Below are positions 902 through 24,048 of a DNA stretch of 42,278 nt, one piece after another (position 1 is the first letter of the stretch; every line of letters begins with the position of its first letter). Below the pieces are notes generated by a model. It was not told where the DNA came from, searched no databases, and worked only from the letters and a program-made list of their open reading frames with translations. The translations under genes were made by a program, and so were the position numbers. The stretch lies in assembly GCA_024399065.1 (NCBI GenBank), contig JAKSIB010000031.1, positions 1 to 42,278 on the forward strand, in the 5' to 3' direction. This DNA is from Fibrobacter sp. GTDB lineage: Bacteria > Fibrobacterota > Fibrobacteria > Fibrobacterales > Fibrobacteraceae.

Positions 902-2035
902 CTAAGCGAAAAAATCAATGGTTCTGCTCTTTACGATCAGCTTATACAGATAATTGCTAAGATCGTCAAGAGTCGCAAATTCGCAATCTGGAAGGTCAGA
1001 CTTCTTAAACGCATCAGCAACTTCAGCAATCAGCTTGGTGCCGATATCCATCACCTCGTCAAATGTAAAGTTTCCGTTCTTGATACTGAGGAGGTAGTCA
1101 CGGTCAGCCTTGCGATCGACAACAACAGTTTTCAGCAATGCGATATCACGGGCTGTCATCAGCAAACGGATACAGTGCATCATATTCTTGGCATCATAAC
1201 CCTGACCATGGGAAATCGTACTTGCGTAACGTTCAGGATTACGCTTGTCGACCCAGTCCCAATATTCGGTGTGCCTACGGCATTCAGTGGCATAGGCGTC
1301 ATGGTTGAAGAACAATGTTCCACACTTGGCCTGTCCCTTCGGTACAGAGCACAACTGCAGATCACATGCCGTCGATTCATCACGAACTACACCATAGGCC
1401 CAACGCCATTCATGTTCAGGACAGGTCTTGCCGACGCCATCATTCGGATCCTGCCTGTACAAAGAATAGCAATTCTTCGCATGGTCAATGGATGCAGCCG
1501 CATACCACTTCTGGTTAGTGATCGACTGATCGGCAAGCCAATTCTTGAACGGGACGGAACCATTTTCCGTGTCGATAATGTAGCAAAAATCAAGTACCTG
1601 CGGACGAGCCTTAGGCATCGGGTTGAATACCTTTTTATTCATACCCCTTGCCTTGCTGATCTGCGTCTTTGCATATTCAGCAAACGTCGACTGGCATTTT
1701 TGCGTAAGGAAAGAGTGGTCGGATCTGATCATGCGAAACCAGTATTCACCAACCTCGATGCAATCATCCGGTGAATAAAGCAGCTCAAGTGCACCGGGAT
1801 TGGCATTGTTCAACAACTGGATGAACTTACTCAGTTCCCAATAGGTATTGTTGTTCTTCTCATCACTCACAATCATCTGGGGCTCGTATCCAAATCGATC
1901 CTTAGCAGGCAATATATAGACACCCTTACGATCCACGTCTGATCCGGTCGTTGCGAGACCATATGACACGCTTCCTACAATGGCCTCCATGATAATCAGG
2001 CCACGTTCCTTCAAATCACTGATTGACATTTGCAT
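902..2035 (-). CDS. Nucleotidyltransferase, RlaP/YcgL-like (DNA polymerase beta superfamily)
   Basis: 377 residues from the ATG at 2035. The frame is open further upstream, but a GAGG site 5 nt before this ATG and a promoter just ahead of it fix the start. Near the N-terminus it has GSVSYGLATTGSDVDRKGVY (residues 21-40), the G-S-x-x-Y-G...S-D-x-D-x-x-G signature of pol-beta-type nucleotidyltransferases. D33 and D35 are the likely metal ligands. This arrangement fits the RlaP/COG3541 family, predicted nucleotidyltransferases often found in phages and RNA-repair loci. The substrate is unknown; RNA end repair is a family-level guess. The family is fairly sure, the role is not. Confidence 0.75.
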   Translation of the reverse strand: MQMSISDLKERGLIIMEAIVGSVSYGLATTGSDVDRKGVYILPAKDRFGYEPQMIVSDEKNNNTYWELSKFIQLLNNANPGALELLYSPDDCIEVGEYWFRMIRSDHSFLTQKCQSTFAEYAKTQISKARGMNKKVFNPMPKARPQVLDFCYIIDTENGSVPFKNWLADQSITNQKWYAAASIDHAKNCYSLYRQDPNDGVGKTCPEHEWRWAYGVVRDESTACDLQLCSVPKGQAKCGTLFFNHDAYATECRRHTEYWDWVDKRNPERYASTISHGQGYDAKNMMHCIRLLMTARDIALLKTVVVDRKADRDYLLSIKNGNFTFDEVMDIGTKLIAEVADAFKKSDLPDCEFATLDDLSNYLYKLIVKSRTIDFFA

Positions 2036-2050
2036 AAAAACCTCAGCCAA

Positions 2051-2079
2051 AATATAAAAAAATAATACCCGCATGTCAA
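2051..2079 (-). promoter_or_regulatory. Sigma-70-type promoter for the nucleotidyltransferase gene
   Basis: On the minus strand, TTGACA (2074-2079), exactly 17 nt, then TATATT (2051-2056). The predicted transcript would begin about 8-10 nt before the ATG at 2035, leaving a very short leader that contains the GAGG site. The same hexamer pair and spacing occur at 5394-5422, 15076-15104 and 33710-33738. Confidence 0.75.
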
Positions 2080-2110
2080 CGGTAAGTATGAGACAGTATG
2101 TCCAGCATTC

Positions 2111-2485
2111 GTCAACTACGCACCGCATAAATGCGGTGAGCTTGTAAAGCCTTGACAAGTTTGCACAAGCAAGGACTTACATACGATTGGGCGGTTGACT
2201 CACGCCCTGCCCATCAAGTATGCGTAGTCATACGAGTTGGGATGGTTTGACTGCATTTCAGCAATCCGCTATACTCATAATGCATCTTGAATCCGTTATG
2301 TATGTGGCTACCGAATCCAATCAAACTGTTTTCTCGCCAAGCCACGAGCCTCTTTTGGACTTTTAGATGAGTGCCTTTTATTTCAGCAAGACTTTCAGCG
2401 TTATGCACAATATAGTTTATATTTTTCTAGTTGGCAAGTGGGAATTCCTAAGCCACCCTAAAGGGTGGCATCTTCCTGCCCACTA
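2111..2485 (-). mobile_element. IS200/IS605-like element without tnpB (element 2, MITE/PATE-like)
   Basis: This covers most of the 2036-2563 gap. Reading the minus strand, a left-end hairpin (2452-2469) with TTGCC arms is followed by about 270 bp without a convincing gene. It ends in a perfect hairpin CACCGCAT/ATGCGGTG (2121-2138) and then GTAGTTGAC. That is close to the GTAGTTCAA end of elements 3 and 4. A 64-codon frame (2214-2408) starts inside it but has no recognised domain. It looks like a shortened element that kept both ends and an internal transcript but lost the transposon protein genes. Boundaries are approximate. Confidence 0.55.
2409..2437 (-). promoter_or_regulatory. Candidate promoter inside element 2
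   Basis: Minus strand TTGCCA (2432-2437), 17 nt, TATATT (2409-2414). The -35 is formed by the TTGCC arm of the left-end structure. A transcript from here would cross the element to the right-end hairpin near 2121. A TATAAACT match (2414-2421) overlaps the spacer and may be coincidental. Confidence 0.45.
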
Positions 2486-8277: not shown

Positions 8278-9759
8278 TTATACCGCCACCGGAGCTGAAA
8301 GTTTTCCTTGACATACATACCCCTTCAATTCGAAATCATTGTAATGCCAATCAAATATAGACCAGTCATCGCCTACATTCGTAATCTCGATTTCAGGCAG
8401 GGTTGACGGAGTACGGGACAACTGCTCATCTACTACGTCCATGTGGTTCTTGTAAATATGGACATCATCAAGATGGCCGATAAGATATCTAGCCTTCAAC
8501 CCGGTCTGCTTGGCGATTAGAGTCAGTAGCATACCATACGATGCGATATTGAACGGAAGCCCAAGAAATGTATCTACACTACGCTGGAACCAGCACAGGT
8601 CAAGATATTCGCCGTCAGACAGAAGGTGAAAGCCGAAATGACACGGAGGCAAGGCCATCTGGTCTAGCTGGCTCGGATTCCACGCCATCACGATCATACG
8701 ACGGTCGGTAGGATTTTCAGACAATTTGTTCACGGCATCTGCGAGCTGGTTCACCGGCACAGGATGTCTATACAATTTTCCGTCAGATACAGTTTCAACA
8801 CGATACCCGCATTTTGTCTTACGATTCTTTTTAACGGCGTTAGCAATAACCCCACGTCCCAACTGCAGGAAATATTCTGCTTCAGAACTATTCAAGTATT
8901 CGCCAATCAGCCTATCACTCTGATCGTAAACACGAATGCAGCCGCTGCACTTCGCATACAACGCAATATCGCCATGGCTCAACCAAACGCATGTATTTCT
9001 TGAATAGCAATTGGATCCATAATAATCCTTGCCGATGTCAAAATTTGATGGCGATCTCAAAACATCGCACCACCCGTTTAGTGTAACTACATCACGCAAA
9101 AATAGCGAGAAATCATGCCAACGTTTTTCGACAAAGACGCCATTGCCACCATATAGAGGATATGAATCGCACGCCATATTATAGCAGCGTCCGATCATGT
9201 TCGCCCATACTCGTCGCATACGCTTCAACAGCTTAACCCCATACGTATCGTTGAACTTAGTAACGGCGTCTACGTCTCCTACATAGCCAATTCCATAGAC
9301 AGTAGGACGATATGTGTCCTCGGCCTGATGGCTACAAACATACGTATCGGACTCCTTGTCCACTATTCGTGGGGACACTTCGATTACCGATGCACGAGTT
9401 CCGTGGAAACTAGACCATTGATACCCGTATATCAAGCCCAGATCGGTTTCATTGGCCATTTTTAACTTAGTTTCATCATCAGTCGCATAGGCAACTTTAC
9501 GTGGGTTGCACCATTCATTCCAAATTTTTGATCCTCTACTAGAAAGCCATGACTTATCGGTAATACCCCTGATGAACATTTCCAGTTCAGCAAAGATACT
9601 CTTTGGCGGCATCTTCTTGGTAGTCAGCAAAGGGAACCCGTCTCGCATGTCATGCTTAAACATGGCACCAGAAATAGAATAGGTATCCACCCCAGTTCGG
9701 TTGGACTTGAGCGTACCATTATTCCTCACTTCACGCAAAATCGACAAATAGGACTGCAT
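8278..9759 (-). CDS. thyA: Thymidylate synthase with a large in-frame insert
   Basis: 493 residues, against about 265-290 in the usual ThyA. The N-terminal part (1-120: SNRTGVDTYSISG, FPLLTTKKM, ETDLGLIYGYQW) and the C-terminal part (about 336-493: TDRRMIVMAWNP, ALPPCHFGF with catalytic C373, FQRSVDTFLGLPFNIASY, APVAV) together make a complete ThyA of normal length. Between them lie about 215 extra residues resembling a homing-endonuclease-type protein, listed separately. No stop or frameshift breaks the frame and all visible catalytic motifs are present. The enzyme methylates dUMP to dTMP using methylene-tetrahydrofolate and pairs with folA downstream. GAGG lies 4 nt before the ATG. Confidence 0.93.
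   Translation of the reverse strand: MQSYLSILREVRNNGTLKSNRTGVDTYSISGAMFKHDMRDGFPLLTTKKMPPKSIFAELEMFIRGITDKSWLSSRGSKIWNEWCNPRKVAYATDDETKLKMANETDLGLIYGYQWSSFHGTRASVIEVSPRIVDKESDTYVCSHQAEDTYRPTVYGIGYVGDVDAVTKFNDTYGVKLLKRMRRVWANMIGRCYNMACDSYPLYGGNGVFVEKRWHDFSLFLRDVVTLNGWCDVLRSPSNFDIGKDYYGSNCYSRNTCVWLSHGDIALYAKCSGCIRVYDQSDRLIGEYLNSSEAEYFLQLGRGVIANAVKKNRKTKCGYRVETVSDGKLYRHPVPVNQLADAVNKLSENPTDRRMIVMAWNPSQLDQMALPPCHFGFHLLSDGEYLDLCWFQRSVDTFLGLPFNIASYGMLLTLIAKQTGLKARYLIGHLDDVHIYKNHMDVVDEQLSRTPSTLPEIEITNVGDDWSIFDWHYNDFELKGYVCQGKLSAPVAV
8755..9399 (-). mobile_element. In-frame homing-endonuclease-like insert inside thyA (HNH/RCY-type plus NUMOD1-like)
   Basis: These are ThyA residues about 121-335. The stretch VYGIGYVGD...RVWANMIGRCYN...YPLYGGNGVFVEKRWHDF...FDIGKDYYGSNCYS...TCVWLS matches the pattern of small phage proteins with G-V-G-Y, W-x-x-M-x-x-R-C-Y, Y-G-G/c-x-x-V-x-x-x-W-x-x-F and D-K-D...G-N-x-x-Y-S-x-x-T-C motifs (AP2/HNH-like mobile-gene relatives). 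Next, CIRVYDQSDRLIGEYLNSSEA...GVIANAVKKNRKTKCGYR resembles the NUMOD1 helix-turn-helix of homing endonucleases. No intein signatures (N-terminal Cys block, C-terminal His-Asn) and no evident group I intron core are seen. Confidence 0.7.
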
Positions 9760-12880: not shown

Positions 12881-12909
12881 AAAAAAGGCCGGGAATATCC
12901 CGGCCTTTC
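12881..12909. terminator. Bidirectional Rho-independent terminator
   Basis: A perfect GGCCGGGA/TCCCGGCC stem (12887-12894 and 12898-12905, loop ATA) is flanked by a six-A run on the left and TTTC on the right. It separates the convergent glycosyltransferase (plus) and IF3-like (minus) genes. The T-run is better for the minus strand. Confidence 0.85.
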
Positions 12910-12928: not shown

Positions 12929-13669
12929 CTACTTACTGCGCTTATTCGGCGCACAGAATACACAGAAACGATTGCCAGCCTGATCTACCTTTGAAATCTT
13001 GCCACCGGTAAGGTTTGCCTCCATTTCCTCACGGATTCGATCCATCACATCGGCAGAATGAGCCATCTGGCGTCCACGGAAATCGATAGTGAAGCGAACC
13101 GGGTGGCCACCTTCCATGAATTCATTGGCCTGCTTCAGCATGCGCATACGGTCGTTCTTGGACGAATCAGACGTATCAGTCGTATACTTGATTTCCTTCT
13201 CCTCGGAAGCCTTCGCAGCGGCACGATTCTTCTTGTCACGGTCCTTGATCGCCTTCTTCTGTTCATAAATGTACTTGTTCAAGTCGCCAAGCTTGCCAAT
13301 GGGCGGGTCGATCTTGTTATTCACTGCAATCAAGTCAAGAGACCTGTCCGCAGCCATCTGTCTGGCCTCGGCTGTACTGATCACGCCGACTGAATTTCCG
13401 TTTTCATCAGTCAATCGTACGGTAGGCGCAGTGATCGTATACTGGGCACGTTCGCTGTCCTTCTCCTGTTGGTACTGGTTGCTCACCCCACGATTGAACT
13501 TTCTGGGCTCGTACTTTTTCATGGTATAGGTATCCAGCTTGCCCGGTACCTCGACAAGCTCCATGCCACGCTCACGAGCATAGGTCTTGGCCATCCCCGT
13601 CTTCATACGTCCCTGATCAACGCCGTTTTCATCAATCAGCGTAATGACAGATGCACTGATATAGCTCAT
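12929..13669 (-). CDS. infC: Translation initiation factor IF3-like protein with duplicated N-terminal domain
   Basis: 246 residues, against about 170-180 for bacterial IF3. Residues 82-137 (VRLTDENGNSVGVISTAEA...LDLIAVN...PPIGKLGDLNKYIYEQKK) match the IF3 N-domain and its helical linker. Residues about 155-240 (EKEIKYTTDTSD..., ANEFMEGGHPVRFTIDFRGRQMAH) match the IF3 C-domain that binds 16S rRNA on the 30S subunit. Residues 8-57 (VITLIDENGVDQGRMKTGMAKTYARERGMELVEV) form a second, diverged N-domain copy. IF3 controls start-codon selection and 30S recycling, so this protein may redirect host translation. It has AAGGAG 6 nt before the ATG and lies in one operon behind the helicase, whose stop overlaps that site. 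Confidence 0.88.
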   Translation of the reverse strand: MSYISASVITLIDENGVDQGRMKTGMAKTYARERGMELVEVPGKLDTYTMKKYEPRKFNRGVSNQYQQEKDSERAQYTITAPTVRLTDENGNSVGVISTAEARQMAADRSLDLIAVNNKIDPPIGKLGDLNKYIYEQKKAIKDRDKKNRAAAKASEEKEIKYTTDTSDSSKNDRMRMLKQANEFMEGGHPVRFTIDFRGRQMAHSADVMDRIREEMEANLTGGKISKVDQAGNRFCVFCAPNKRSK

Positions 13670-13679
13670 TCTGATCTCC

Positions 13680-15068
13680 TTACATCAATACGTGCAATTC
13701 CTTGGCTGCACGAGTGAATGCTGTGTATTTAAGTTTGTTTCTAAGTTCGTCCTCGGGAATGCGGTTGATATTCTTCTCGATGACAAATACATTTTCAATG
13801 GTACTGCCCTGCGCCTTGTGTGCTGTCAGGGCATAGATATATCCGACGAACAGGAAGAAATGCTTGAATCTGGTATAGTCTCGCCAAGCCTCTTTAGGAG
13901 TATACAGACGGCTGCCTGAATGTCCCTTCATTTCAAGCTTGCGCTTGGCTTCGGTGGCAAGCATCTCACGCCGGGCATAGTATTCATTCATCCCTTCCTG
14001 AGAGACAATATATGCGACCGACTTGACCCGATTGCGCTTAGACACATTTTCTACTTCAACCTTGTAGCACTTTATGCCATACGACGGGTCTTCACAAAGT
14101 TCACACGACTTGATGACAAGGTGTTCCTCGATCGTGTAGACCATCTTGAAAATGGTTGATTTGCCAACAACCACGTCATTCCCATACGTCCTTACGACAC
14201 GCACCTCTTCCCCTACCTCGTATTCCATAGTCGTATTCGGGTACAGCGCTTCTCGCACCTTCAGATTGATAGCATCAACTGCGGCGTTGGTCCATGCCAC
14301 AGCCATGGCATAATTGGTATCAAGCTTGAATTTTTCCGACGTAAAGTATCCGATCATCGTCTCCATGAACTCGTTTGTACGCTCGTGGAAGAATATTCCA
14401 GTACCATCCACGGCGACGGACGTTTCATGCGAAAATAGGTCTACAGGCGACAGCATATTGGCTCGCATGGCAGTGACAACGCCAAGGATCGGGTTGTCCT
14501 CAGCCGTTCGCATGACCTGAGTCAGTTCAACCTGCAACGGCAGCTGGAAGATGATGGACTCCAATATACCAGAATTAGCATCGTCAACAGGAGGTATCTG
14601 GCACCGGTCGCCGACATAGATCACCTTGATCGTTGTAAATATCTGCAGCTGCTTCTGGATCTCGTTAAGCAAGGCGACTGACACCATGGAGGCTTCATCT
14701 ACTACAACCACGTCATATTCGGCAAGATGGCCCTCATTTTCACGTTTTAACTTAGGCCTACCGTCGTCGAAATCCTGTAAAACAAGGCCAAGAAGCGAGT
14801 AAATCGTACTATCGAACGCACGTCCTGTACGGTCAGCAATGACCTCGACAGCCTTGTTCGTCGGTGCGGTACATACATATGCAGGCCGACGATGCGCAGG
14901 AATCTGGTCAAACTCATCGAGCAAGACATTGATCAACGATGTCTTACCAGTGCCGGCGGCACCATAAAGTACCATCTGACGACGGTCAGGCATATGTAAA
15001 AATTTATTAATAAAATCAAGCGCTGCCACTTGATCCTGATTCAAATCTTCTCGGGTAAGACGGTTCAT
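13680..15068 (-). CDS. SF1 DNA helicase, Dda/RecD-like
   Basis: 462 residues. LNQDQVAALDFI (Q-motif-like start), Walker A YGAAGTGKTS (about 36-43), APTNKAV (motif Ia), VVVDEASMVS (Walker B, 124-127), YVGDRCQIPP (motif III), ALTAHKAQGST (motif V) and TAFTRAAKEL (motif VI) place it in superfamily 1B with T4 Dda and RecD2. It probably unwinds DNA 5'-3' during replication or recombination. The ATG at 15068 lies only about 8 nt after the -10 box, so the mRNA may be leaderless. The next in-frame Met (residue 26) is only 10 residues before Walker A and would remove the Q-motif region. Confidence 0.93.
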   Translation of the reverse strand: MNRLTREDLNQDQVAALDFINKFLHMPDRRQMVLYGAAGTGKTSLINVLLDEFDQIPAHRRPAYVCTAPTNKAVEVIADRTGRAFDSTIYSLLGLVLQDFDDGRPKLKRENEGHLAEYDVVVVDEASMVSVALLNEIQKQLQIFTTIKVIYVGDRCQIPPVDDANSGILESIIFQLPLQVELTQVMRTAEDNPILGVVTAMRANMLSPVDLFSHETSVAVDGTGIFFHERTNEFMETMIGYFTSEKFKLDTNYAMAVAWTNAAVDAINLKVREALYPNTTMEYEVGEEVRVVRTYGNDVVVGKSTIFKMVYTIEEHLVIKSCELCEDPSYGIKCYKVEVENVSKRNRVKSVAYIVSQEGMNEYYARREMLATEAKRKLEMKGHSGSRLYTPKEAWRDYTRFKHFFLFVGYIYALTAHKAQGSTIENVFVIEKNINRIPEDELRNKLKYTAFTRAAKELHVLM

Positions 15069-15075
15069 GCCATTG

Positions 15076-15104
15076 AATATAACAAATCAGTCTCAAGTTG
15101 TCAA
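15076..15104 (-). promoter_or_regulatory. Sigma-70-type promoter for the helicase-infC operon
   Basis: Minus strand TTGACA (15099-15104), 17 nt, TATATT (15076-15081). Its expected start site falls at or next to the helicase ATG (15066-15068). Confidence 0.75.
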
Positions 15105-15114
15105 GGGGTAAAAG

Positions 15115-15147
15115 AAAATGCCACCATCAATACGATGGCGGCATTTG
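15115..15147 (-). terminator. Terminator after the BspA-like gene
   Basis: A 12-bp stem with one mismatch (15116-15127 with 15135-15146; ATGCCGCC... / ...GGTGGCAT) is followed on the minus strand by TTTTCTTTT. It lies 15 nt after the stop of the leucine-rich-repeat gene and insulates it from the helicase promoter. Confidence 0.7.
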
Positions 15148-15161
15148 TATATGAATATGAT

Positions 15162-18100
15162 TTATTCGGCCAATCCACCCCAGTCCACAGGGATCTGATT
15201 TAGTTCAGCTCTTCCGGATTCTGTATTGGTACCAGCATCTGTGAAACATCTGAAATAATCTGTTACTTTACCTGTTGATGAAGCTTGTTGATATAAATCT
15301 AACATACCAGATTGAATATTTTTACATTCTTCAAACATAGAATACATCTCAGTAACATTACTTGTATCAAATAATGGTACATTAGTCAATGAAGTACAGC
15401 CATTGAACATAGAAGACATATCATTAACCTTACTTGTATTAAATAATGGAACAGATGTTAATGAAGTACATCCATAGAACATATAAGACATAATAGTAAC
15501 ACTGCTTGTATCTCCAGCAGCAATAATCTGTATGTTTTTATCTAAATTTTCTGTTAATTTCATACCAAATTTATTTGACCAGTTAGTAACATTACAAGTC
15601 CAGTCCCAGTCATTAAATTCAGAATCTGTTACTTTAGTCCAAGTACCACCGTTTTCTATAACAGTTGGATTATAGTCAGTATTTTCAAATCTGAATCTTA
15701 ATGTATTCGCCGGCAATTCAACTTTTAAGCCACCCCAGTCCACAGGGATCTGTAGTCTGACCTCTTCACTGCCGCAATTAGTAAACGTATTATAATGCGA
15801 AACTGGTTTTTGTGTACCACCTTCTTCATACGTTTTGTCCTTCACACTATTATAGAACTCCAATGCACCTGCAGTCACACTTTCGCAATTACAGAACATA
15901 GTGCTCACATCATGTACGCTTGTAGTATCAAACAATGGAATTACAGACAACGATGAACACCCAAATAACATACCACTCATATTAGTTACATTTGATGTAT
16001 CAAATAGTGGGACAGTAGTTAACGATGTACAATTATCGAACATACTATGCATATCAGTTACATTTGATGTATCAAATAGTGGGACGTCAGTTAACGATGT
16101 ACATTCAAAGAACATACTACGCATACTTTGAACATTTGATGTATCAAATAGTGGGACAGTAGTTAGCGATGTACAATCCCTGAACATATAGTCTAGGTCA
16201 ACTAATGTTGTGCTAGGTAAAGTCAGTTTTGGCGCAGTAACTAGTGACGAGCACCCCTTAAACATATTCTTAAACGAATTGTCATCAGTTGCGTTACTCA
16301 AATCCAAGTCAGGTATTTTTTGCAGTGATGTACACCCACTGAACATTTCAAAAGCATACTCAACACTGTTTGTATCGATCGGTGCATCAATAGACACTAA
16401 TTGCGTACAATCTTGGAACAAATATTCCATGTGAATCACTGACGATGTATCACCTGCCAATATTAGCCGTGTTGGTGTATCAACAAGTGCGCCTTTCAAT
16501 GAGCTACTCCAGTAATTTTTATCATAATACCAATTCCAGTCGTTATATTCACTGTATGTAACCTTAGTCCAAGTACCGACGCTCGATATTGGGCGAACCT
16601 CCTCACTTACTTCCCCAGTCCAGTTATTTACTACGGTATACGTTTTTGCTGACGGGTCAAAATCAGGATCTTCGAACCTAAATCTGAGAGTATTGGCGGG
16701 CAACGGTAAACCACCCCAGTCCGTAGGGATCTGTTCCAAATCGTATAAGCCGCCGTTCGTATTTTTGCCACACAGAACGAATGTGTCATTATGCGATTCT
16801 ACTATTCCATCACTGGCAGATTCATACAACGCTAATGCGCCAGTTTCCACATTTTTACAATATGCGAACGCATTGTCCATTGCGGTTACATTACTCGTAT
16901 CGAGCAACGGGACCGCCGTTAACGATGTACATTCATAGCACAAATAACTCATATCAGTAACATTTACCGTATCAAACAACGGGAGTGCAGCTAATGACGT
17001 ACATTGGTAGAACATATCACGCATGGTAGTCACATTGCTCGTATCAAATAATGGCACTTCCGTCAATGATGTACACTTATTGAACATGAATTGCATATTT
17101 GTGACATTACTGGTGTCAAATAGAACTATCGAATCCAACGCCGAGCAAGCATCAAACATGCTATCCATATTGGTTACATCAAATGTATTACCTGCTTCGA
17201 TCATCGTGGCACGAGTAGTGGTAAATTTACGACTAAAGGCATCAGACCAGTCATTGTCGTCACAATGCCAATCCCACACACATCCGTCAGTACCATCATC
17301 TGACACCTTTACCCAGCTTCCTTTGTTTGAAGATGGAGTGTACGAATTATCATCAAAGTGGAAACGAAGCGTGTTGGCTGCAATATTTTCCATCAAACCA
17401 CCCCAGTCCTTAGGGATCTGCGTCAAGTCATACAAGCCAGACTCGTTATTACTTCCGCAATTAGTAAACATATGATAATGCATAGTCACGTTACCGGACT
17501 TAGCGAAATTATCGTATAATTCATACGCACCTTCGCTGACATTGATACAATCAGCAAACATTTCATCGCCATTGGTTAAAGATGGGAACAACGTTGTAGG
17601 CAAGCTAGTTAGGCCTACACATCCAGCAAACATATTTCTTCCGTCAGATAACTCGTTGAATACACCTTCAGGGATGCTAGTCAAGCTGACGCAATCTACA
17701 AACATACTCCGACCTATATGTATATTTGAACACAAGTCTACCGGAATACTTTCCAATAAAGTACAACCATAGAACATATTATCGGCGACTTCAGCTGCAG
17801 TAAACAATCCATCACAAATGCTAGTTAATCCCGAACAATTTTCAAACAAGGACGACGTACTCACGACATTTGACAAATCACCAGCTTTGATAATACTAAC
17901 ACAAGTTGTCTCATCAAATGCATCTATAAAAAGCCCATCAAAATGTTCTTCTTGAGCTGCAAAAGTCCAATCCCAGTCATTGTATGTACTGCTGTTTACT
18001 TTAGACCAAGTTCCGCCATTCTGAATTTCAGATGGGTCGTAGTTTTCATCTTCAAATCTAAAGCGAAGAGTATTAGCGGCAAGTTCTTCCTTCAAGCCGC

Positions 18101-18995
18101 CCCAGTCCTTAGGGATCTGCTTCAATTCAGCTAAGCCCGGGATACTCTTAATACCACAATTAGTAAACGTGTCCGTATGAGTTACGGTAGAATCCATCAT
18201 AGCCGTATACAAATCCAATGCACCAGAATTAACATTTTCACAATTTTTAAACATACTGTTCATGTTTACGCATTCCGGCAGATCCATATCAGGCACTTCG
18301 GTCAATGCAGTACAGCCATCAAACATGTTTTCAGCATATTTAACTTTAGACGTGTTTAAGCCCGGCGCCGTTGTCAATGCGGTACAATGATCGAACATAC
18401 CAGCCATTTTAGTTACACTACTCGTATCATAAACCGGGACAGTAGTCAGCGATTGGCAATACGAAAACATATTTATCATATTTTTTACAGAAGATGTATC
18501 CAAGTTTGGCGCAACGGTCAAATCGTCGCAATGATGAAACATCAGATGCATGTCAGTAACAGCATTTGTATGCTGCATATCAACAGTTATTAACTGTTTA
18601 CAGTTATCAAACATTTGGCTGGCATTACGTAAATTACTCACGTCATTCATCGTCACCGACTCTAAATTCATGCATGACATAAATAATTTTGACATATTAG
18701 TTACATCGGTCGTATTTCCATCAATGACGCTTACTGCATATCCAGTATTAAAACAATTGGCAAATTTACCTGTCCAATTGCGGGAGTCGTATCCCCATTT
18801 CCAGTCATTATATGCCGAGCCTTCCACACGGGTCCATGTTCCGCCATTCTCAATTTCAGATGGATCATAATTTTGATTGGAAAATCTAAATACTAAATAC
18901 TGGTTTTCCGCTACATTTTTTGAAAATTTAATGACCTTGTTGTTATGATCAAGATTCTTGCCTAAATGTTTCAGCACGAATGATTTCAAACCCAT
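15162..18995 (-). CDS. BspA-like leucine-rich-repeat protein (DUF285-type), five modules
   Basis: 1277 residues from the ATG at 18995 (AAGGG 7 nt upstream; an in-frame ATG at 19010 is the alternative). The chain is built of DTSNVTxMxxMFxxCTSL units, the BspA/DUF285 repeats that form a right-handed solenoid and mediate surface binding. They are grouped into five large modules (boundaries near 18098, 17398, 16711, 15731 and 15175). Each starts LRFRFEDxxYDPS...GGTWTKV...NDWxW and ends QIPxDWGGL. The first start is diverged (LVFRFSN). No signal peptide or membrane segment is seen, so it is more likely a virion component than a secreted protein. A TATAAACT motif like that of the fibre genes precedes it. 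Probable receptor-binding or adhesin role. Confidence 0.8.
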   Translation of the reverse strand: MGLKSFVLKHLGKNLDHNNKVIKFSKNVAENQYLVFRFSNQNYDPSEIENGGTWTRVEGSAYNDWKWGYDSRNWTGKFANCFNTGYAVSVIDGNTTDVTNMSKLFMSCMNLESVTMNDVSNLRNASQMFDNCKQLITVDMQHTNAVTDMHLMFHHCDDLTVAPNLDTSSVKNMINMFSYCQSLTTVPVYDTSSVTKMAGMFDHCTALTTAPGLNTSKVKYAENMFDGCTALTEVPDMDLPECVNMNSMFKNCENVNSGALDLYTAMMDSTVTHTDTFTNCGIKSIPGLAELKQIPKDWGGLKEELAANTLRFRFEDENYDPSEIQNGGTWSKVNSSTYNDWDWTFAAQEEHFDGLFIDAFDETTCVSIIKAGDLSNVVSTSSLFENCSGLTSICDGLFTAAEVADNMFYGCTLLESIPVDLCSNIHIGRSMFVDCVSLTSIPEGVFNELSDGRNMFAGCVGLTSLPTTLFPSLTNGDEMFADCINVSEGAYELYDNFAKSGNVTMHYHMFTNCGSNNESGLYDLTQIPKDWGGLMENIAANTLRFHFDDNSYTPSSNKGSWVKVSDDGTDGCVWDWHCDDNDWSDAFSRKFTTTRATMIEAGNTFDVTNMDSMFDACSALDSIVLFDTSNVTNMQFMFNKCTSLTEVPLFDTSNVTTMRDMFYQCTSLAALPLFDTVNVTDMSYLCYECTSLTAVPLLDTSNVTAMDNAFAYCKNVETGALALYESASDGIVESHNDTFVLCGKNTNGGLYDLEQIPTDWGGLPLPANTLRFRFEDPDFDPSAKTYTVVNNWTGEVSEEVRPISSVGTWTKVTYSEYNDWNWYYDKNYWSSSLKGALVDTPTRLILAGDTSSVIHMEYLFQDCTQLVSIDAPIDTNSVEYAFEMFSGCTSLQKIPDLDLSNATDDNSFKNMFKGCSSLVTAPKLTLPSTTLVDLDYMFRDCTSLTTVPLFDTSNVQSMRSMFFECTSLTDVPLFDTSNVTDMHSMFDNCTSLTTVPLFDTSNVTNMSGMLFGCSSLSVIPLFDTTSVHDVSTMFCNCESVTAGALEFYNSVKDKTYEEGGTQKPVSHYNTFTNCGSEEVRLQIPVDWGGLKVELPANTLRFRFENTDYNPTVIENGGTWTKVTDSEFNDWDWTCNVTNWSNKFGMKLTENLDKNIQIIAAGDTSSVTIMSYMFYGCTSLTSVPLFNTSKVNDMSSMFNGCTSLTNVPLFDTSNVTEMYSMFEECKNIQSGMLDLYQQASSTGKVTDYFRCFTDAGTNTESGRAELNQIPVDWGGLAE

Positions 18996-19025
18996 ATGGA
19001 TACCCTTCATTGGTAGTTTTCAAAT

Positions 19026-22774: not shown

Positions 22775-22900
22775 ACTACCCACACGCTAAAGACGTGTGG
22801 GTTTCCACAACATCAGCGTGTATGATTTCCGAGGCTGCTCCCCTAACGGGGTGCATAGAATCCTCGGCGTAAATTTCGGCTGTCCGAGCCGTATTGTTTA
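22771..22900 (-). ncRNA. Candidate omega RNA (reRNA) at the 3' end of tnpB
   Basis: TnpB guides usually come from RNA covering the gene's 3' end and the transposon right end. Here this stretch folds well: a CCGAGG/CCTCGG stem (22829-22834 with 22862-22867) encloses a CCCC/GGGG hairpin with a TAAC loop, and the right-end hairpin follows. These lie inside the tnpB coding frame. The 5' limit is a guess. Confidence 0.5.
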
Positions 22901-23996
22901 ACTTGAATGCGAACTTCTTGATGTTCCGTGCAGCAAGAAGGTCACGCTGGTTTACAGCACCACAAGCGGGACAGGTCCATACACGGTCGGACAGTTTAAG
23001 CCCCCTGTGTACGTGACCGCAAGAACACATCTTGCTAGACGGCTCAAACCTACCTATACGGATAATGTTCTTACCATACCATTCTGCCTTGTAGTCCATA
23101 TAGACATTGAACGTTCCAATGCTTATGTCGGACAACGCTTGTGCAAGCCTATGGTTTTTGAGCATATTGCTTGCGGAGAGTGTTTCAAGACAGATAGTGT
23201 CGTAGTGGTCTATCAAATACTTGCTAGTCTTGTGCAGGAAATCCTTACGCTTATTCGTAACCTTCTCGTACTGACGGGCGAGCAACTTGACCGCTTTCTT
23301 TCGGCTGTTGCTGCCCTTCTTCTTGCGAGAAACAGAGCGTTGCAAGCGTTTCAACCGCTTCAAGGCTTTCTTCAAGTATTTGGGGTTCTGTATTTCGGTT
23401 CCGTCACTCAAGGTAGCAAACGTCTTGATGCCCAAGTCCACACCGACCGCTTTGTTCTCGTCTATCGGTACTTTGTTAGGAATGGTGTCTTCAGTTTCCA
23501 CAAGAATGGATATGAAATACTTGCCCGTGGGTGTCCTACTTATTGTGCTTGTCTTAATCTTTCCTTTGAAATGTCTATCGAATCTGCATTTGATACCTTC
23601 CTTGAACTTCGGCAGATACACCCGCTTGGCTTCGTAGTCCACTTTGGTGTTCTGCGGAACTTGGAAGGACTGATGATTGTCGTGCTTCGCCTTGAACTTC
23701 GGGAAGCCTTTCCGCTCTTTGAAGAATCGTGTAAACGCCATATCCAAGTTCAGCAGGGCTGCTTGTAAAGAAAGTGAATTGACTTCGGTGAGCCACTTGG
23801 TTGCCTCGGCTTTCTTCAACTTCGGCAGGTCGGCTTGTATGGTGAAGCGTGACACACTTTTCTTGGTTTCGGAATAGGACTTTATTTTCCGTTCAAGCCC
23901 GTAGTTGTAGATGTATCGGGCACACCCAAAGTGCTTGGATAGCAGCACTTCTTGTGTCTTTGTCGGATAGAGCCGATATTTGTACGCCTTCAACAT
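22776..23996 (-). CDS. tnpB: TnpB, RNA-guided endonuclease of IS200/IS605 elements
   Basis: 406 residues from the second of two adjacent ATGs (AGG 5 nt upstream of it). It starts MLKAYKYRLYPT, as in OrfB_IS605 proteins. The split RuvC nuclease residues are present: GVDLGIKTFATL (D187), ICLETLSASNM (E271) and NQRDLLAARNIK (D352). A zinc finger with C324, C326, C342 and C345 lies between the last two. The protein uses omega RNA to cleave DNA next to a short motif and promotes retention of the element. The frame runs through the right-end hairpin, and its TAG is part of GTAGTTCAA. It looks intact. Confidence 0.95.
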   Translation of the reverse strand: MLKAYKYRLYPTKTQEVLLSKHFGCARYIYNYGLERKIKSYSETKKSVSRFTIQADLPKLKKAEATKWLTEVNSLSLQAALLNLDMAFTRFFKERKGFPKFKAKHDNHQSFQVPQNTKVDYEAKRVYLPKFKEGIKCRFDRHFKGKIKTSTISRTPTGKYFISILVETEDTIPNKVPIDENKAVGVDLGIKTFATLSDGTEIQNPKYLKKALKRLKRLQRSVSRKKKGSNSRKKAVKLLARQYEKVTNKRKDFLHKTSKYLIDHYDTICLETLSASNMLKNHRLAQALSDISIGTFNVYMDYKAEWYGKNIIRIGRFEPSSKMCSCGHVHRGLKLSDRVWTCPACGAVNQRDLLAARNIKKFAFKLNNTARTAEIYAEDSMHPVRGAASEIIHADVVETHTSLACG

Positions 23997-24048
23997 CATA
24001 ACCTAAATATATACTATTCTTTAATGAAATACAAACGGTCTCTCTAAA

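Follow-up and report, generated by a model that had tools for sequence, protein, structure and literature searches.

A predicted jumbo-phage IF3-family protein whose N-domain is doubled and whose C-domain has diverged

The DNA analyzed here in full (42,278 nucleotides; hereafter the window) makes up a single 42-kb contig in a Fibrobacter assembly of 118 contigs. Its gene at 12929–13669 encodes what the sequence identifies as an IF3-family factor of a jumbo phage: an added N-domain stands in front of the usual N-domain, linker, and C-domain, and the C-domain has diverged. The added and canonical N-domains are called N1 and N2, respectively. The gene and the unit around it contain the following features.

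12883–12909, minus strand: terminator-like hairpin with a T tail after the IF3 gene, 12 pairs
12929–13669, minus strand: IF3-family gene with two N-domains, 246 amino acids, ATG start (TIGR00168, 118.5 bits, cut-off 60)
12941–13204, minus strand: diverged C-domain, residues 156–243 (IF3_C, 36.3 bits)
13208–13282, minus strand: linker helix, residues 130–154, with Tyr135 aligned to E. coli Tyr75 (alignment, model)
13283–13438, minus strand: canonical N-domain N2, residues 78–129 (Pfam IF3_N match at 78–143)
13439–13513, minus strand: segment between N1 and N2, residues 53–77, partly helical in the model (pLDDT 52–74 by block)
13514–13669, minus strand: extra N-domain N1, residues 1–52, beta-beta-alpha-beta-beta (IF3_N alone, 28.9 bits; HMM A4; model)
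13676–13680, minus strand: AGGAG resembling a Shine-Dalgarno sequence, ahead of the IF3 ATG and in overlap with the stop codon of the helicase gene (sequence)
13680–15068, minus strand: Dda-like helicase gene, upstream in the IF3 unit (phrog_325, E 6.4e-90)
15076–15104, minus strand: promoter TTGACA-17-TATATT whose end lies 7 nt upstream of the helicase ATG, a leaderless-type geometry
15116–15146, minus strand: terminator-like hairpin before the helicase promoter, 14 pairs

An earlier sequence-only reading had proposed an IF3-like phage factor at this position; the open reading frame was recovered at the same coordinates, on the minus strand, and its product belongs to the IF3 family. The NCBIfam infC equivalog model TIGR00168 matched residues 71–243 at 118.5 bits against a cut-off of 60, and scores were 116–123 bits across all four proteins of this double-N type. 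In Pfam searches with the whole protein, IF3_N scored 95.9 bits over two stretches, the better one at residues 78–143, and IF3_C matched residues 158–221 at a marginal 36.3 bits (cut-off 34.8). The protein also matched phrog_9787, annotated "translation initiation factor" (E 3.6e-31, residues 74–223), and its model matched the PDB IF3 entries 5lmn (E 1.3e-13) and 9ss2 (E 2.3e-11). Domain boundaries were placed at residues ~4–52 for N1, 78–129 for N2, 130–154 for the linker helix, and ~156–243 for the C-domain. Because two N-domains, and not the canonical single N-linker-C architecture, are present in 4/4 proteins, the window protein is classed as an IF3-family variant rather than a canonical IF3.

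Residues 1–72 alone matched Pfam IF3_N at 28.9 bits (E 1.3e-6; cut-off 26.9), and N1 and N2 each pass that cut-off separately, at 28.9 and 70.7 bits. The lack of such a match in the first stretch would have overturned the sequence-only reading, which thus withstood its own check. Local alignment of N1 with N2 scored 77 in the window protein, where the best of 1000 shuffles reached 46, and 105 versus 46 for shuffles in relative L003, in which a DPPI motif is common to both copies. A profile built from the four N1 domains of the window and its three relatives (HMM A4) recognized the window protein's own N2 (E 1.1e-10) as well as the N-domains of cellular IF3s, the latter at E-values down to 7.4e-8. 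The AlphaFold model (16 sequences) showed the same strand-strand-helix-strand-strand order in N1 and N2 at pLDDT ~90, with a confidence of ~90 for residues 11–50 of N1; with a pTM of 0.41, no relative domain orientation is predicted. When N1 was modeled alone, the eight best Foldseek matches were IF3 chains, although these were weak (E 0.03–0.16, none under E 0.001), and a second structural comparison likewise returned IF3 chains at Z 4.5–5.9, under the safe level of the tool. The claim that a diverged second copy of the N-domain precedes the normal N-linker-C arrangement, in an architecture foreign to canonical IF3, therefore held up on profile scores, shuffles, predicted fold, and the two IF3_N matches per protein found in 4/4.

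N1 is nonetheless an N-domain core attached through a poorly predicted segment and not a second half-IF3, because neither a linker helix nor an equivalent of Tyr75 accompanies it in any of the four proteins. It carries a conserved motif of its own, DE[NG]GxDxGxMxTGxAxxYAR, and its final strand is conserved in the three relatives as PP[IV]YTV[KR]PRQ[KR]FVP; this strand is altered in the window, where the PP-IYTV motif has been lost. In a tree of N-domains built on 63 columns, from which L053 was left out because the cutting motif failed and L028 and L029 because their N-domain sequence equals that of L030, N1 and N2 of the double-N proteins grouped apart from all others (support 83/90) and N1 formed its own group (89/97; both values unstarred); N1 of the window sat on a long branch of 0.99 changes per column. 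The tree suggests that N1 likely arose by in-house tandem duplication. Chance resemblance between the two copies was rejected on the shuffle scores, the HMM A4 matches, and the conserved double-N relatives, and an assembly or frame artefact was rejected because the architecture recurs on four separate contigs. An internal start that would yield an ordinary IF3 in all four was also considered: three of the four genes do have in-frame ATG, GTG, or TTG codons in the stretch from residue 50 to residue 86, but among those listed none has a clear Shine-Dalgarno sequence, judged by eye, and L003 has no such codon there.

The relatives L003, L004, and L006 lie on three IMG/VR contigs of 355, 308, and 105 kb. 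Each shows two IF3_N matches in one frame and one IF3_C match and is 53–57% identical to the window protein; their N1 domains are 62–71% identical to one another. Among the collections searched, the double-N form was found nowhere beyond the window and these three contigs. Five scans of IMG/VR found no further double-N contig, and a single N-domain was present in all 14 resolved loci among the 15 other IMG/VR IF3 loci (L010 was dropped for want of an open frame). Within the GenBank phages, 51 records had an IF3 match, every one starting at residue 53 or later and none reaching N1, and N1 alone gave no match in that set even at E 5. IF3 matches were obtained in 92 of 111 genomes of the host family, with none but the window starting before residue 20; across the phylum, HMM A4 matched 50 of 167 genomes, with two matches in one protein only in the window. 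One further scan of genome contigs yielded one single-N relative. These scans used short patterns or one genome per species, so that cases can be missed. A second divergent IF3 gene, L053 (genome G036, contig C96), is 38% identical to the infC of the window's host and shows no sign of a second N-domain.

N2 and the linker are the best conserved parts of the double-N proteins: identity between the window and its relatives was 65–71% for N2 and 69–77% for the linker, compared with 52–54% for N1 and 43–47% for the C-domain. Tyr135, which follows N2, corresponds to E. coli Tyr75 and is invariant in 16/16 aligned IF3s; E. coli Tyr75 touches the 30S platform in published complexes, as described in the available part of PMC5037330. 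Equivalents of Tyr75, Lys72, Arg131, Gly132, Arg133, and His137 are retained in 4/4 double-N proteins.

The divergence of the C-domain was absent from the sequence-only reading and matters at least as much for function as N1. Pfam IF3_C scores were 36.3 bits in the window, 35.0 in L003, 34.9 in L004, and 34.1 in L006, the last just below the cut-off of 34.8 when the protein was scanned, whereas seven single-N phage IF3s scored 88–90 in five cases, 70.8 in L035, and 49.3 in L019, and the host's own IF3 scored 95.6. The K-F-R-P of the E. coli C-domain is replaced by K-[YLM]-T-[TS] in 4/4 double-N proteins, and the RGR motif and histidine are kept in all four; the alignment of the first hairpin is ambiguous by ~2 residues, and only this directly read motif change is relied on. 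By these comparisons, the gain of N1 and the divergence of the C-domain go together in this small group of four. Given the L006 score of 34.1 against 34.8, the double-N C-domain may even have lost function.

A phage setting, which had been read from the letters, was supported by gene order: the surroundings of the IF3 gene are syntenic with the 355-kb and 308-kb IMG/VR contigs. The order helicase, IF3, two convergent genes, lytic transglycosylase, DNA ligase, and RNA repair protein is shared with L003 and, as far as that locus reaches, with L004. The window IF3 gene is a single copy, and the same assembly holds a canonical host infC adjoining open reading frames that resemble its usual ribosomal-protein neighbors. 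Another contig, C15 (87 kb), is probably part of the same phage, judging by its promoters and G+C. Of 41 perfect TTGACA-17-TATATT promoters in the assembly, 15 lie on C15 and four in the window; C15 has a G+C of 0.435, compared with 0.439 for the window and 0.49–0.51 for stretches from two other contigs.

Other genes in the window were noted in passing. An RNA-related phage gene at 902–2158 (minus strand), conserved in L003, encodes an RlaP-type nucleotidyltransferase of an RNA repair pathway family (E 7.8e-19). At 8278–9759 (minus strand), ThyA carries an in-frame insert of ~220 amino acids matching phage HNH endonucleases (phrog_2081, E 3.7e-29); a search of this region for Rfam introns found none, and the insert may be an in-frame fusion of a homing endonuclease, or else an open reading frame carried by an intron. 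L003 has ThyX (14527–15258; Pfam Thy1, E 5.6e-37) at roughly the corresponding point of its gene order, an apparent swap of one thymidylate synthase type for the other; leaderless geometry is seen at the L003 ThyX gene and at a gene of L004 that opens with identical codons. A 1282-residue protein at 15162–19010 (minus strand) contains repeated units, DTSNVTxMxxMFxxCxSLT, which we take to be BspA-like surface repeats, and related stretches occur on C15. A transposase gene lies at 22776–23999 (minus strand; phrog_506, E 3.3e-125), and C15 contains diverged copies of it.

The helicase-IF3 unit is bounded by hairpin terminators on both sides, and the -10 element of the helicase promoter is preceded by TG. 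The sequence-only reading had paired a candidate leaderless helicase mRNA with the IF3 gene. Candidate leaderless geometry is indeed present in the window and recurs in these phages: an ATG opening at least 60 codons lay 6–7 nt after a perfect -10 at 14 of 49 unique phage promoters (7/30 in the relatives, 6/15 on C15, and 1/4 in the window) versus 1 of 15 on other contigs of the assembly. This count leaves out promoters that had no locus, namely 10 of 40 from the records of the relatives and 7 of 22 from the remaining contigs of the assembly. The 6–7 nt class was fixed after the first examples had been seen, which makes the binomial value for its enrichment post hoc. A looser promoter count gave 1/5 for the window, 7/15 for C15, and 0/7 for stretches of contigs C1 and C2. 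The pairing itself did not extend beyond the window. A Dda-like helicase gene lies upstream of IF3 in 4/4, at spacings of ~10, 100, 320, and 740 nt, but the helicase starts of L003, L004, and L006 have no leaderless-type TTGACA-17-TATATT promoter, and the IF3 genes of these three have their own promoter with a leader of 30–32 nt. Over whole records, the geometry occurred at 11 of the 43 promoters counted in the three double-N records; seven single-N records showed it at 6 of 59, and one of these seven lacks a TTGACA-17-TATATT promoter altogether. Leaderless-type starts look like a real feature of double-N phages; the association of this geometry with the double-N form is suggestive only.

According to the accessible text of the review PMC4611024, the C-domain on its own can carry out every function of IF3 in vitro, and IF3 without its N-domain loses about two orders of magnitude in affinity. 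Leaderless translation, according to the part of PMC9031893 available, is inhibited by raised IF3 and enhanced by some infC mutants. Given these roles, as far as the two sources set them out, the doubled N-domain and changed C-domain make a strong 30S competitor with altered stringency the best reading. We tentatively propose, as the explanation that best fits though one still short of probable, that this variant IF3 binds 30S subunits in competition with the host factor and changes the stringency of initiation. It would bind the 30S subunits of the infected cell through N2, the linker, and the C-domain, and N1 would provide a second point of docking, lengthening the stay of the factor on the platform or tRNA elbow so that it displaces host IF3. 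Because the C-domain, which is responsible for anti-association and start-site checking in ordinary IF3, is the part most changed, stringency would be expected to be altered and not merely copied. If relaxed, it would favor the mRNAs beginning at or near AUG that these phages apparently make. A full phage translation-takeover factor of a new class, whose doubled affinity domain and altered checking domain would win the 30S from host IF3, relax start-site rejection, and favor leaderless or near-leaderless phage mRNAs, is unlikely with all its parts taken together. N1 may not be a 30S binder at all, as it has neither the platform-touching linker helix nor the Tyr75 equivalent.

A somewhat unlikely account makes the protein a back-up, supplying IF3 activity when host IF3 is limiting or attacked, with N1 as a tolerated decoration. 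The infC equivalog model is passed and IF3 genes are widespread in phages, as the 51 GenBank records attest; however, a simple stand-in should have retained the canonical type of C-domain that is found in most single-N phage IF3s, and N1 has been kept in 4/4 although the proteins are only 53–57% identical to that of the window. The replacement of K-F-R-P in 4/4 would suit a translation shut-off factor, a dominant negative that takes up 30S subunits and keeps host mRNAs from being initiated, as would an extra affinity module encoded by a single-copy gene beside a canonical host infC. Such a factor is distinctly unlikely: phage mRNAs, including the IF3 mRNA with its Shine-Dalgarno sequence, need the same 30S subunits, and the conserved R-G-R and histidine of the C-domain are still present.

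N1 could also be a tether whose partner is something other than the 30S platform, such as a tRNA, the 50S side, the replication helicase, or a different protein of the phage, and which brings that partner to initiating ribosomes. The absence of the linker and Tyr75 equivalent, the motif particular to N1, and the helicase gene upstream in 4/4 agree with this, but the helicase-IF3 spacing varies widely and a helicase is a common phage gene, which leaves a tether very unlikely. That N1 is a decaying, functionless leftover of duplication is hardly credible: the long branch of the window N1 and its lost PP-IYTV motif would fit, but N1 is intact in 4/4, is well conserved among L003, L004, and L006, and is modeled with high confidence over residues 11–50. 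Four related phages thus encode a natural protein in which the N-domain, an affinity aid, is doubled and the C-domain, the working part, is changed (roles as given in the accessible text of PMC4611024). The double-N IF3 offers a direct way to test the part of each domain in start-site choice, and it bears on whether phages retune initiation or only supply spare factors. Should leaderless mRNAs benefit from it, a viral factor would be connected with an initiation mode whose regulation is poorly understood.

Phage-encoded IF3 as such has already been published (Al-Shayeb 2020, PMC7162821; Iyer 2021, PMC7824862; both as represented in their available text), and those portions mention no duplicated N-domain. 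Nor was a report of one found in the available text of the open-licence literature, subscription papers and preprints being outside the scope of that search. In common with bacterial IF3 (infC; TIGR00168, PF05198 and PF00707), N2, linker, and C-domain of the window protein together pass the equivalog model and retain the Tyr75, Lys72, RGR, and His equivalents; in contrast to it, the protein has a second N-domain in front and a far diverged C-domain, and is phage-borne beside a host infC. It shares family and phage origin with the huge-phage IF3s (phrog_9787; PMC7162821 and PMC7824862, in the parts available), but those have one N-domain in 14/14 resolved IMG/VR loci, and the phrog_9787 match begins only at residue 74. 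Phage-encoded ribosomal protein S21, for which the accessible text of PMC7162821 describes N-terminal extensions proposed to aid competitive ribosome binding, likewise has its homologue among initiation components and has gained an N-terminal part; it is an unrelated protein, and, going by that text, its addition is a basic, aromatic extension, whereas that of the window protein is a predicted folded second copy of a domain. What appears to be new here is the duplicated IF3 N-domain and, accompanying it in phage IF3, the strongly diverged C-domain.
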